Source: Rhodovulum bhavnagarense (GTDB lineage Bacteria > Pseudomonadota > Alphaproteobacteria > Rhodobacterales > Rhodobacteraceae). Taken from it: a stretch of 64,000 nt of DNA. The position numbers were made by a program, and so were the translations under genes. Below, one piece after another: positions 31,397 to 51,797 of this stretch. Numbering within the stretch: position 1 is the stretch's first letter; every line of letters starts with the position of its first letter. Below the pieces are notes generated by a model that did no database searches, had not been told where the DNA came from, and was given only the letters and a program-made list of their open reading frames with translations. The DNA is taken from contig NZ_SLXU01000006.1 of the NCBI RefSeq assembly GCF_004343505.1, positions 62,001 through 126,000 on the forward strand, written 5' to 3'.

Positions 31397-32391
31397 CGGT
31401 GGGCAATCCCCTGGCAAAGTGTCCATGTCGGCTCGGGCAGGTTGTGCAGAACGCGCGCGCGCAACTCCACGAGGTCGGGATGGGCAAGATCGCGCATCAG
31501 GTGGCCCCAGACGCGTGGCATCAACGATAAATAACCTGGCTTGCCGTCGCGCAGGCAAAGCCGCGCGAAAACCCCGAGAATTCGAAGGTTGCGCTGGGCC
31601 CCAAGCAGCGCGTAGGCGCGGACAAAGCTCTCGGGGTCGGTGTCGCTGGCCGTGATGTAACGGTCCAACATCTGGGCCTGCAAAACCGGCGAGACATCGC
31701 GGCGCGCATCCTCGAGAAGGGACACGAGATCATAGGCCGGATGACCAACCATGGCGTCCTGGAAATCCAGAAGCCCCACGCGCGCCGCGCCGCGACGGTC
31801 CGGCAACCAGATCAGGTTCTCGGCATGGAAATCCCGCAGAACCAGGACCGAGGGTGTCGCGTGCCGGGTCAAAAGAGTCTCTATTTCGGCACGAAACGCG
31901 ACCTTTTCCTCGTCGGGTGCAGGATGGCCTATCGCCGGCAAATACCACTCGAACGGCAGGCAGGCGAGCTCCGCCATCAATGGCGCGCCGTAGGCGGCAA
32001 GATTGGCGGGTGGCGCGGCGCGATGAAGCCGGGCCAACAGGTCGACGGCAGATGCGTATAGCGCGGGCTCGGCCTCGGGATCGTCCTGGGTGACACGGGC
32101 GAACAGCGCATCGCCCAGATCCTCAAGCAAAAGGAATCCGGCCTCGGGATCTTCGGCCAGGATTTCGGGCGCTGACAGGCCGAGGCCGTGCAGGTGGCGC
32201 GCAATGGCGATAAAGGGGCGCACGTCCTCGCCGCGGTCTGGGGGCGCATCCATCAGCACCGCGCCGCCGTCCCCCGGCCCGCCGGTCAGCCGGTCATAGC
32301 GGCGATTGGATGCGTCGCCCGCAAGTGGCGCGCGATTGGCCGCGCCCCAACCTGCGCGATCCAGAAAGGCGGCGATACTGCGCTCAGCCAT
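31378..32391 (-). CDS. amgK: Aminoglycoside phosphotransferase-fold sugar kinase (AmgK-type)
   Basis: AmgK phosphorylates the anomeric OH of MurNAc and GlcNAc, supplying MurU. The 337-residue protein has the APH fold: LAGDASNRRYDRL (nucleotide-binding turn), FLLLEDLGDALFA, the catalytic loop VLRDFHAENLIWL near residue 195, and LLDFQDAMVGHPAYDLVSLLED, with the metal-binding aspartate. ATG 32391 overlaps the tsaE end by eight bases. The five genes tsaE-amgK-murU-addB-addA all overlap, indicating one transcript. COG3178 proteins of this type were earlier called predicted phosphotransferases. Confidence 0.9.
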   Translation of the reverse strand: MAERSIAAFLDRAGWGAANRAPLAGDASNRRYDRLTGGPGDGGAVLMDAPPDRGEDVRPFIAIARHLHGLGLSAPEILAEDPEAGFLLLEDLGDALFARVTQDDPEAEPALYASAVDLLARLHRAAPPANLAAYGAPLMAELACLPFEWYLPAIGHPAPDEEKVAFRAEIETLLTRHATPSVLVLRDFHAENLIWLPDRRGAARVGLLDFQDAMVGHPAYDLVSLLEDARRDVSPVLQAQMLDRYITASDTDPESFVRAYALLGAQRNLRILGVFARLCLRDGKPGYLSLMPRVWGHLMRDLAHPDLVELRARVLHNLPEPTWTLCQGIAHRCTPHP

Positions 32392-32884
32392 GGGTGACGC
32401 CGCGCGCCAGGGCAGGGGCAAGCCGCGTTGACCAGTCAGGATCATCAAAGCTGAACGTCGCGATGCGACTATCCTCGGTCGGGCCCTGCGCCAGCCGCAG
32501 GGTCAGCGCCCCCTCGGGCGCCAGATCGCCCAGCCGGTCGGGCCACTCGATCAGGCACAGCGCGGTTGAAAACGCCTCGTCCAGACCCAGTTCCAGCACC
32601 TCGTCGGGCCTGGTCAGGCGGTAAAGATCGGCATGCCAGATTTCCAGCGGCCCGGCGGCATAGGTCTGGACCAGCGTAAAGGTGGGCGAGGGCACGTCCT
32701 CTGGGGCGGTGGCGGCGCGGGTCTGTGCGGCATGAATAAGCGCGCGCGCCAGCGCGGTCTTGCCCGCGCCGATCGGCCCCTCGATAAGCAGCGTGTCGCC
32801 CACGCCAAGGATGCCCGCCAGGGCATCGGCCAGGGCGCGGGTCTCGACCTCGTCGGCCAGGGTCAGGGTGACGGGCTTTGGCAT
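32384..32884 (-). CDS. tsaE: tRNA threonylcarbamoyladenosine ATPase TsaE
   Basis: ATPase that resets the TsaBD complex during t6A37 modification of tRNAs. The 166-residue protein has the N-terminal ADEVETRALADALAGIL helix, Walker A GPIGAGKTALARAL near 36, PSPTFTLVQTY, the WHADLYRL strand with its conserved aspartate, and LIEWPDRLG, the Walker B-like end. The partner TsaD is encoded at about 43.4 kb, outside this operon. It is the first gene of the tsaE-amgK-murU-addBA unit, 42 bp after the PAS gene. Confidence 0.95.
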   Translation of the reverse strand: MPKPVTLTLADEVETRALADALAGILGVGDTLLIEGPIGAGKTALARALIHAAQTRAATAPEDVPSPTFTLVQTYAAGPLEIWHADLYRLTRPDEVLELGLDEAFSTALCLIEWPDRLGDLAPEGALTLRLAQGPTEDSRIATFSFDDPDWSTRLAPALARGVTHG

Positions 32885-32926: not shown

Positions 32927-34462
32927 TCAGCCGGTGGCGCGCGAAACCGGCAGGGATGCGCGGGCCTCGGCGGTGACGGGACGGAACCCGACCAGGACCG
33001 CGCCCCCCGCGATTGGCGCGACCCGGCACCGCAGGCGCAGCCCGTCACGATGCACCATTTCGCCCGACCAGCTTTGGCGGCGGCGGATCTGACGGCCGAG
33101 GTCGGGGGCCTGGGCGCCGTTTTCGATCGGCAGGCATTGCGCCTGCCACAAGGCGGTGGCCCCTGCGATATCGCCCGGCCCCAGCAACAGCATCTGATCG
33201 TCGCCCCAGAGGTCGGAATAGGCTGCGTTGGACAGCGTCAACAGGCCCCCGGTCGAGAATACCGCAATCGCCTCGTCCAGACTGTCGATCACGGCCTGTC
33301 CGGTCTCAAGCTCGCTTCTGAACCGGCGGGTCAGGGACATCTCGGCGCTGATATCCTCGATCAGAAAGGCGACCGCACCATCGGGATGCGGCCGGCCGGT
33401 GATGCGGTAAACCTGCCCCGAGGGCAATGTCCAGGTGTCGGAATAGACCCCGTCCGCCGCGTCGCGTTCCAGCCGCTCGATGGCCTCGCGCCAGGTACGG
33501 TAATCCTTGGGTTCCGGCATCATGCGGTTTTCGCGCAGATGGTCCAGCAGGTTGCGCAGGCTGGGCCGGGCGATCAGGAATTCGGGGTCCAGGTTGAACA
33601 GCTCTGACATTGCCGGGTTGAACAGCACAAGTTCGCGCGCGCGGTTGAACACGGCCAGGCCAATCGGCAATTCGGCAAAGGTCTTGGTCAGCGTCTGCAT
33701 GAAATTGCCAAGCGTGGTTTCAGCCCGCACCGCCGCATCGGCCGGCAGTGCGCAGTGAACCGCCGCGGCGCCGGACCCGGTCGAGATGCAGTCATACCAG
33801 TGCATGTCGCCCATACCGTCACGCAGCGCCGCCCGGATCGGCCCGACAGCCTGTGGAAACAGCGCGGGCAGGGGCCAGGACAGGGGCGTTTCGGCCTCTG
33901 TTTCATCGTGGATCAGGCCGATATAGGCGCGGTTTGCCCAAGTGATACCGTGTTCCGTGTCGCCCTGCCAGACCGGGATCGGTAGCGCGTCGGCCACCGT
34001 GCGATGCGAGGCCAGTTCCTCGGTCAGGGCGGAAAGATCGAGATCGCTTGCCGCGTGGGCACGGGTCGCCGTGCGCGGTATCTGAAGCGTGATCCGGGCC
34101 ACCCCGTTCAGCCATGTGGCGCCAAGTTGGGCGTGGCCGCCCGCCTCTGTCATGAAGGCGCTGCCATCCTGGGCCAAGCGTGCCATGCGCTGTGCAAAGC
34201 CGGGAAAGCGAGGCGCCAGAAGCGCGCATAGCCGCTGCCAGTCTGACAGGCCGACGGGCCCGTCGGCGATGAAACGCAACGCTTCCGGCGTGGCATCAAG
34301 TAGCGTTTCATCATCGAAAAGAAACACCATTTCCATTGCCGGGCGCGCGGTTGACAGCATGTGCCGCGCGCGTGGCAGGTATGGCAACAACAACAGCGCC
34401 GCAACCACAGAGCCTAAAGAGGTCGCTGCCAGAACCAGCGCAAATGCCCAATCCAGATCCAT
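32927..34462 (-). CDS. Membrane-anchored multi-PAS protein without kinase domain
   Basis: The 511-residue protein has one N-terminal membrane helix (about 5-29) and up to four PAS-like modules: about 43-130, 155-245, 263-372 and 390-500. Landmarks are LPIPVW, ITWANRAYIG, LPIGLAVFNRARELVLFNP, LPSGQVYRITGRPHPDG, FLIEDISAEMSLTRRFRSEL (20 residues) and VIDSLDEAIAVFSTGGL. This resembles the sensory half of DivL-type or PAS_7 histidine kinases, but the protein stops before any H-box or ATPase domain. Two perfect CtrA boxes lie 52-92 bp upstream. I prefer ATG 34462 to a TTG at 34477. Its function is unknown; a regulatory role in the CckA-ChpT-CtrA pathway is only a hypothesis. It is 42 bp from tsaE and 117 bp after regB. 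Confidence 0.8.
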   Translation of the reverse strand: MDLDWAFALVLAATSLGSVVAALLLLPYLPRARHMLSTARPAMEMVFLFDDETLLDATPEALRFIADGPVGLSDWQRLCALLAPRFPGFAQRMARLAQDGSAFMTEAGGHAQLGATWLNGVARITLQIPRTATRAHAASDLDLSALTEELASHRTVADALPIPVWQGDTEHGITWANRAYIGLIHDETEAETPLSWPLPALFPQAVGPIRAALRDGMGDMHWYDCISTGSGAAAVHCALPADAAVRAETTLGNFMQTLTKTFAELPIGLAVFNRARELVLFNPAMSELFNLDPEFLIARPSLRNLLDHLRENRMMPEPKDYRTWREAIERLERDAADGVYSDTWTLPSGQVYRITGRPHPDGAVAFLIEDISAEMSLTRRFRSELETGQAVIDSLDEAIAVFSTGGLLTLSNAAYSDLWGDDQMLLLGPGDIAGATALWQAQCLPIENGAQAPDLGRQIRRRQSWSGEMVHRDGLRLRCRVAPIAGGAVLVGFRPVTAEARASLPVSRATG

Positions 34463-34513
34463 CCCGATCCTATCCAAGGTCCTCTACCCCGGCTCGATCA
34501 GGACGAGAAAAAG

Positions 34514-34528
34514 TTAACCTTGGGTTAA
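34514..34528. promoter_or_regulatory. CtrA box upstream of the PAS gene (perfect)
   Basis: TTAA-CCTTGGG-TTAA matches the TTAA-N7-TTAA CtrA consensus exactly, 52 bp before the PAS gene ATG, at a spacing like that of the flagellar CtrA boxes in this window. Confidence 0.72.
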
Positions 34529-34539
34529 TCAAGAGATAA

Positions 34540-34554
34540 TTAAATCGCCTTTAA
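34540..34554. promoter_or_regulatory. Second CtrA box upstream of the PAS gene (perfect)
   Basis: TTAA-ATCGCCT-TTAA is a second exact match, 26 bp from the first. Both lie in the 117-bp gap between the regB stop and the PAS gene start. Confidence 0.7.
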
Positions 34555-34579
34555 CGCGAGTGATTGCTTCCGGTCGTGT

Positions 34580-35977
34580 TCAGGCGTCGATCGGGACGTT
34601 CTCGCCCAATGCGGCAAGCTGGGATTCGGGGCTGACGCCGATCCTGGCGACTGGCCATTCGACCTCGACAACGGCGCCGCGCCGTTCATTCCGGGCAATG
34701 CCTGTCACCACGGGATCAGACCCGTTGGCAAAGCTCAGCCGTGCGCCCGACCGTTCCAGCAACGTCTTTGCGATGAAAAGGCCAAGGCCCATCCCTTCGT
34801 ATTCGGGCCGCTCTTTCTGCGGTACTTCCGGGCCGCGCCGTTTGCGCACGAAAGGATCGCCGATCCGGCCCAAAAGGTGCGGCGGATAGCCCGGCCCGTC
34901 ATCCATGATGCGGATCGTGATGTCATGGCCCGACCATTGTGCCACCACCCAGACCCGCGTTTCGGCAAAATCCACCGCGTTCTGGATCAGGTTGCGCAGC
35001 CCGTGGATGATCTCGGGGCGACGGTGGATGACGGGCATCCGGCTGCTGCCGCCATGGATCGGCTCGGCGGTAAAGACCACTTCCTTGCCGCGGTTGCGAT
35101 GGGGCTCGGCGGCCTCGTTTACTACCGCCTCTAGTGGCGCGGTGCGCATATGCAGGTCATCCTTGCCCGCCCGGCCCATCGACCGCAGGATATCGCGGCA
35201 CCGGTCGGCCTGGTCGCGAATGAGTTCGACATCGTCGCGCTGGTCCGGCCGGTCCGACAGATCGTCCAGCAATTCGGAACTGACCAGCTTGATCGTGGCC
35301 AGCGGCGTGCCCAGCTCATGCGCGTAGGCGGCCACAACGCCACCCAGGTCGGTCAGCTTCTGTTCACGTGCCAGTGCCATTTGCGTGGCCAACAGGGCCT
35401 CGGACATCTTGTTCATCTCTGACGTCACGCGGCCGGCATAGAGGCTCAGAAACGAGATTCCGATCACCATCGCGACCCAGAACCCGAACAGGAAAATGTC
35501 GGGCAAGGCCAGGATCGTGCCATCCGCGCGCACGAGTGGAAGGTGATAAAACGCTACGATGGTGACAAGGACATAGGCCACATGCGCGAGAAACAGGGTC
35601 GATCTTGGCCCAAGTGCGGTGGCCGATATCGTGACCGGCGTCAGGATCAAAAGTGCAAAGGGATTGTTCAAACCACCCGTCAGGAACAACAGTGCCGCAA
35701 GCTGGACCACGTCGAACAACAGTGTCAGCATTGTTTCTGTTTCGGAAAGACGACGGTTTTCGGGATAGATCGCCGCGGCAATCACATTGGCCAGAACCGC
35801 GGTTGCCACGACCAGCAGACACAGGCCCAGCTCTAGCCTGATGTGGAAATAGAACTCGGCTACCGCGATGGCGACCAGTTGCCCTGCCACGGCGGCCCAG
35901 CGTAACAGCGTCAGCGTTTGCAGCCTGATCCAGTGGCTGCGCTCTGTCGGCGTGGGAAGGCCGGCGGTTTCGGGCAT
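34580..35977 (-). CDS. regB: Redox-sensing histidine kinase RegB (PrrB/ActS)
   Basis: RegB autophosphorylates under low oxygen and passes phosphate to RegA to control photosynthesis, respiration and carbon or nitrogen fixation genes. The 465-residue protein has about six membrane helices (25-180), the quinone-sensing heptad GGLNNPF at 101-107, and the H-box AYAHELGTPLATIKLV with histidine 220. The redox-active cysteine is Cys260 in DQADRCRDIL. ATPase boxes are NLIQNAVD, DDGPGYP and GMGLGLF. I use ATG 35977 with AGG upstream rather than TTG 35995. It is divergent from senC-regA. Confidence 0.95.
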   Translation of the reverse strand: MPETAGLPTPTERSHWIRLQTLTLLRWAAVAGQLVAIAVAEFYFHIRLELGLCLLVVATAVLANVIAAAIYPENRRLSETETMLTLLFDVVQLAALLFLTGGLNNPFALLILTPVTISATALGPRSTLFLAHVAYVLVTIVAFYHLPLVRADGTILALPDIFLFGFWVAMVIGISFLSLYAGRVTSEMNKMSEALLATQMALAREQKLTDLGGVVAAYAHELGTPLATIKLVSSELLDDLSDRPDQRDDVELIRDQADRCRDILRSMGRAGKDDLHMRTAPLEAVVNEAAEPHRNRGKEVVFTAEPIHGGSSRMPVIHRRPEIIHGLRNLIQNAVDFAETRVWVVAQWSGHDITIRIMDDGPGYPPHLLGRIGDPFVRKRRGPEVPQKERPEYEGMGLGLFIAKTLLERSGARLSFANGSDPVVTGIARNERRGAVVEVEWPVARIGVSPESQLAALGENVPIDA

Positions 35978-51486: not shown

Positions 51487-51797
51487 GCATCACCTGAAGG
51501 GGGAAAGACCTTTCACTTAAGGATGTTGACAGAGTTTGTATAGACCGCAGAGAGTACCTGATCCGATCTTGGTTGGCTCAAGAGAGGCCCATCTGTCTTG
51601 CACTGTTCACCACCACCCGCGCGCAAGGCCAAAATGTTTCCTGCTTATCTTGGCATCCCGCCCGGACCGGTCAAGCCGGGGCGGCCTGGCATCCGGCGGC
51701 TGTGAGTGGTGCAAATCGCGAGCATTTGAACTGTTAAGACCGCGTTCAGCCGATGCGCCCTATCCTTGTGCGCGGGTGGCAGATCGAGGGGACAGCG
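51487..51797. other. Gene-free gap between DEAD-box gene and motB
   Basis: No credible coding frame is seen in these 311 bp. They must hold the promoters of two divergent genes. A CtrA-like box at 51734-51748 is the only regulatory site I recognise. Confidence 0.6.
51734..51748. promoter_or_regulatory. CtrA-like box upstream of motB (one mismatch)
   Basis: TTAA-GACCGCG-TTCA differs from TTAA-N7-TTAA in one base and lies 50 bp before the motB ATG. Confidence 0.55.

Follow-up and report, generated by a model that had tools for sequence, protein, structure and literature searches.

What controls the gene for a kinase-less PAS protein that lies behind the sensor kinase gene regB in Rhodovulum bhavnagarense, and what are the two TTAA-type motifs in front of it? 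We analysed this locus within a 64-kb window, which is the whole stretch of DNA under study. The genes and motifs concerned are listed below.

34580..35974, minus strand: regB, sensor kinase gene, upstream of and collinear with divL (NCBIfam NF045988 RegB, E 1e-232)
34540..34554, minus strand: distal CtrA-like box, TTAAAGGCGATTTAA on the gene strand, exact, starting 92 bp before the divL ATG
34514..34528, minus strand: proximal CtrA box, TTAACCCAAGGTTAA on the gene strand, exact, starting 66 bp before the divL ATG
32927..34462, minus strand: divL, short form, 511 aa, PAS domains only, without HisKA/HATPase
32384..32884, minus strand: tsaE, directly downstream of divL (Pfam TsaE, E 4e-32; NCBIfam T6A_YjeE above cut-off)

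Two exact CtrA-type boxes lie between regB and divL

A preliminary description of this DNA had reported an exact pair of TTAA-N7-TTAA sites (34514-34528 and 34540-34554) 52-92 bp upstream of the ATG, and we confirmed the coordinates: the motif pair at divL is real and exact. The boxes are 26 bp apart, start to start, and both match the core of a CtrA site, TTAA-N7-TTAA, exactly. In the fuller consensus the second TTAA leads into C(CAT); in this place the proximal box has C and then TTTTT, and the distal box has T. The window contains only these two exact sites, both in the 117-bp regB-divL gap, and 100 shuffles of the whole window gave a mean of 0.01. The AT content is 52% in the gap versus 36% in the window, and dinucleotide shuffles of the gap (n=20,000) produced at least one site in 88 cases and two sites in 0.

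On the scale of the whole genome (3.15 Mb, 51 contigs), 11 exact TTAA-N7-TTAA sites were found, 2 of them in the divL gap. The reversed control AATT-N7-AATT also occurred 11 times in this genome, so the genome-wide motif count, which the preliminary description had proposed to make, is uninformative and the placement of the sites alone is telling. Pairs of sites 5-35 bp apart numbered 17 in 16 of 149 family genomes (R. bhavnagarense included); the control motif gave 16 pairs, in 11 of the 149 genomes. Genome-wide counts were dropped as evidence: the reversed control occurs as often as the single sites and almost as often as the pairs. The suggestion that such a pair is improbable by chance stands for the gap itself; genome-wide there is no excess over the control.

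The kinase-less PAS gene is a short divL

Pfam analysis showed that the 511-aa product contains PAS_8 and PAS_7, and neither a HisKA nor a HATPase domain was detected, in agreement with the PAS protein without kinase noticed before. Judged by its sequence, this gene is the short divL of Rhodobacterales. In this order, DivL has been reported to consist of the PAS part only, with DivK absent, and a few members have kept a long DivL whose kinase is degenerate (PMC9430884, available parts). The ATG at 34462 is backed by relatives whose alignments begin at that residue, and related proteins share 67% (Rhodovulum adriaticum) and 47-48% (Rhodobacter capsulatus) identity with the product. A PDB profile search with DivL returned one weak match, the BvgS sensor.

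We built a profile from 18 short PAS-only relatives and searched 190 class-level genomes, of which 78 matched, 3 of the 78 (the own genome included) belonging to the family. The class-level loci scored were the 27 out-of-family matches with DNA, and their phosphoacceptor residue was Tyr in 25, Phe in 1 and without recognisable motif in 1. Tyr in place of the histidine kinase His is a hallmark of DivL. The short protein is homologous, along its PAS region, to these Tyr-type proteins from outside the family. The tsaE gene was found downstream in 5 of these 27 loci (directly adjacent in 4), many stretches ending too early to be scored. The gene order with regB and tsaE occurs in the window and in most family loci checked, and is our own observation, not a published definition.

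The proximal box is strongly conserved upstream of divL

The proximal box is strongly conserved upstream of orthologous divL. In the record-titled sample (the best 80 of 120 loci encoding a relative, scanned from -300 to +60), 79 of 80 loci carried an exact box, at -52 to -95. All 16 genomes of the genus, the own one included, had it at -61 to -73. A family search at E 1e-20 matched 135 of 149 genomes, and 124 of the 134 non-own genomes were scored (109 + 15); the exact box was present in 104 and absent in 20. The 109 loci, which were anchored by tblastn (39 short stretches without a tblastn hit keep the first anchoring), comprised 96 with an exact box, 9 with one mismatch, 3 with no box and 1 mis-anchored inside regB (G035). 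The further 15 loci had an exact box in 8 and a non-exact one or none in 7. Because the record-titled and family samples share loci, their counts are not additive. Other spacings (N3-N6 and N8-N12) gave 0-3 sites each in the record-titled loci (81 with the window included; best 80 of 120) or the family set.

We aligned 170 different box-anchored sequences from both samples, in which the TTAA columns are invariant by construction, and found the flank TTAAC-N5-R-TTAACCATT. This family flank reproduces the CtrA consensus TTAACCAT. A second conserved element, AA-N2-TT, lies 12 bp downstream of the box, at positions +27 to +32 counted from its first T, and is probably part of the promoter. The window itself fits this pattern only partially: the sequence after the proximal box is TTAACTTTTT, not TTAACCATT, and the conserved downstream AA is missing.

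The distal box appears peculiar to R. bhavnagarense

A second exact box was found neither in the other 15 genus genomes nor in the 80 record-titled loci (best 80 of 120). The box pair as a conserved feature was ruled out, since the proximal box alone is conserved. The preliminary description had made conservation of both boxes in close relatives a point to check, and the proximal box passed (79/80 of the best 80 of 120, 16/16 and 96/109), while the distal box did not (0 of the 15 other genus genomes). The doubled motif therefore looks peculiar to R. bhavnagarense, and the distal box was probably added recently, at the level of the species.

Two family genomes carry arrangements of their own at divL: a box pair in the distant G093 and two overlapping boxes in G041. 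The 26-bp start-to-start distance recurs in 5 of the 17 family pairs, the divL pair included, and some of these are perhaps not independent of one another. Like the window, L204 and L208 (family genomes G133 and G126) have two boxes separated by 26 bp, the L208 pair lying beside a gene that is terminase-like by eye.

CtrA-type sites also precede cckA and ctrA

The genome contains ctrA (NF045991 above cut-off), and GTAAC-N6-TTAAC, one mismatch from the box, lies 66 bp before its ATG. An exact box is located 65 bp upstream of the TTG taken as the start of cckA (L001 1501-1515; G000:C1:707402-707416). The locus stops within this gene, which explains why it matched the CckA models partially and with scores under their cut-offs. 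The distance from box to start is thus nearly equal for cckA (65 bp), divL (66 bp) and ctrA (66 bp). A chpT-like gene is present with a model score below cut-off, and no clear box of its own was found at it. The L007 box was considered as a chpT site and rejected: the chpT-like start is 246 bp away, with a small DUF3553-like gene (by eye) in between, and an acyltransferase-like gene (by eye) starts on the other side of the box.

Further exact sites precede a ParA-family ATPase gene, a PleD-like diguanylate cyclase gene and a terminase operon read as GTA-like; the remaining five exact-site loci have no assigned target or an unlikely one. The site at the terminase operon (L003 1501-1515; G000:C3:99797-99811) lies between an MltG-like gene (by eye) and this operon. 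In R. capsulatus, CtrA has been reported not to bind the GTA promoter (PMC6363796, available parts). Within the window, sites with one mismatch each lie at 51734, 52677 and 61247, before MotB-like, FlgE-type flagellar and FliL genes. The spacing at divL had been likened to these flagellar boxes at 51.7, 52.7 and 61.2 kb; this likeness brings no independent support, because those sites are mismatched and N7 is the pattern itself.

The gap is predicted to place divL in a CtrA feedback loop

The link from CtrA to divL is already known, since it has been predicted for Rhodobacterales and shown in ctrA mutants of relatives. The following reports are cited from the available parts of the papers. CtrA control of cckA and divL was predicted in Rhodobacterales cluster B, whose DivL lacks the kinase domain, a trait coupled to the absence of DivK (Brilli 2010, PMC2877005). 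In D. shibae, a CtrA site was described at divL, and divL was lower in ctrA, cckA and chpT mutants (Wang 2014, PMC4046655); a later D. shibae paper names predicted sites at ctrA and cckA and, in its available parts, none at divL (PMC6473078). In R. capsulatus, divL was down in ctrA knockouts and mildly up on ctrA overexpression (Fogg 2019, PMC6363796), and DivL stimulates the CckA kinase (Westbye 2018, via a citing paper). In P. inhibens, divL1 was repressed in ctrA and cckA mutants (PMC12363192), the available text leaving unstated whether this paralog is the short form.

The earlier assignment of the PAS gene to the CtrA regulon is well supported by the conservation of the proximal box, the identity of the gene as divL and the ctrA-mutant data of D. 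shibae and R. capsulatus. We consider it highly likely that the gap is a CtrA-controlled divL promoter in a positive feedback loop through DivL, CckA, ChpT and CtrA, and this is very probably a feedback switch of the kind predicted and partly shown in related bacteria. The gap promoter would give divL its own transcription start inside the regB-divL-tsaE run; a promoter scan of the gap found no sigma-70-like promoter. By analogy with the promoter class, phosphorylated CtrA would bind the proximal box over the -35 region and activate divL. DivL would then feed the CckA-ChpT-CtrA relay, in which CckA is expected to phosphorylate CtrA via ChpT. Because boxes also precede cckA and ctrA, the loop would be closed: CtrA would raise DivL and CckA, which in turn would raise phosphorylated CtrA. 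The distal box probably raises the occupancy by CtrA.

The divL genes of other Rhodobacterales (Brilli cluster B; Dshi_3433 of D. shibae; rcc00042 of R. capsulatus) likewise encode a kinase-less DivL; a promoter CtrA site was predicted in cluster B and D. shibae, and the ctrA mutants studied in D. shibae and R. capsulatus had lower divL levels. They differ in that the available accounts describe no pair, whereas R. bhavnagarense has two exact boxes 26 bp apart. No tandem box at divL was seen in the parts of the literature available to us. New here are the family-wide conservation of the box and the tandem box. The R. capsulatus gafA promoter is similar in that its CtrA site usually lies 65-71 bases before the start codon and is conserved across 14 species despite divergent flanks (Fogg 2019, PMC6363796, available parts); it differs in that the target is a GTA activator, not a relay component, and the site is TTAAC-N6-GTAAC, one mismatch from TTAA-N7-TTAA. 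In Caulobacter, DivL also stimulates CckA and the relay phosphorylates CtrA, but this DivL has retained a pseudokinase, which interacts with DivK~P, whereas Rhodobacterales are without DivK, with rare exceptions (PMC9430884, available parts).

In Rhodobacterales, motility, quorum sensing and gene transfer agents are under the control of the CtrA pathway, sometimes in only part of the population. The conserved divL box together with the cckA and ctrA boxes would make DivL a wired-in arm of positive feedback and a natural place to look for bistability.

Other readings of the boxes

Another regulator with a TTAA-type half-site, for example an Fnr/Dnr protein, might bind the boxes and make the resemblance to CtrA sites incidental. 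In R. capsulatus, FnrL binding next to divL has been reported from ChIP-seq and prediction, and the Dnr/Fnr site shares the TTAAC half-site (PMC7232146, available parts); for an sqrR mutant, one data set showed divL up and another showed no change (PMC9143464, available parts). Nevertheless, the N7 spacing is fixed, the flank is TTAACCATT, and according to the published data D. shibae and R. capsulatus express less divL when ctrA is mutated, which makes this reading very unlikely. Overlapping control of divL by CtrA and an Fnr/Dnr-type regulator is possible.

CtrA could also bind and repress divL or block read-through from regB, giving negative feedback. The placement of the boxes alone leaves the sign of regulation free, and read-through from regB into divL is possible because a terminator scan found no terminator-like site between the two genes. 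We regard repression as very unlikely, since the reported divL transcript falls, rather than rises, on loss of ctrA in R. capsulatus and D. shibae, and in the same genome the sites at cckA and ctrA lie at a matching distance from their start codons. That both boxes are chance motifs is hardly credible despite the AT-rich gap and the single and pair counts equal or near to the reversed controls, given the 0 of 20,000 gap shuffles with two sites and the persistence of the proximal box across the family, which refutes chance for that box; the distal box alone may be a chance motif.

Loss of the kinase domain and gain of the box share a branch

The presence of the box was set against the domain structure of DivL. 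Nine family proteins and the window protein were tested for HisKA by Pfam; the other family proteins were scored as kinase-less from frame length, and class-level proteins as kinase-bearing from motif and frame length. The exact box was present in 0 of the 5 family genomes whose DivL has HisKA, and in 4 of the 4 with a long DivL without HisKA. For the class-level long DivL it was found in 2 of 27 loci, among which L278 has no upstream DNA and L276 and L279 only about 200 bp.

A tree of 67 proteins places the loss of HisKA and the gain of the box on the same branch (34 rows, support 100), beyond which 32 of the 34 rows have the box (20 of 20 hand-picked rows and 12 of 14 others). L245 (G122) lies outside this clade on a long branch, and its gene runs off the contig; with it unscored, the tree needs 1 change for HisKA and 5 for the box. 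A Fisher test of kinase domain against box (p 7e-5) was dropped, as it ignored the relatedness of the genomes and scored L245, with its gene cut off at the contig end, as kinase-less. The tree offers 2 independent pairs for such a test, which is too few. Because this is one event, the coupling is suggestive only.

We tentatively propose, as a possibility that we hold to be less probable than not, that an ancestor within Rhodobacterales lost the DivL kinase domain and gained the CtrA box at about the same time, swapping the post-translational DivK input for transcriptional feedback, and that the second box in this species would make the switch steeper. In the available parts of a published species tree, DivK loss is placed before DivL truncation (PMC9430884). 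No mapping of the box against kinase loss within the family was seen in the parts of the literature available to us. The locus offers an example of a single branch that combines the loss of a protein domain with the gain of a promoter site. In L235, L236 and L240 (family genomes G004, G083 and G101), the HisKA-bearing DivL has His (ISHRLRTPL, ISHQMRTPL) where the class-level proteins have Tyr, and the family may therefore hold a His-type DivL.
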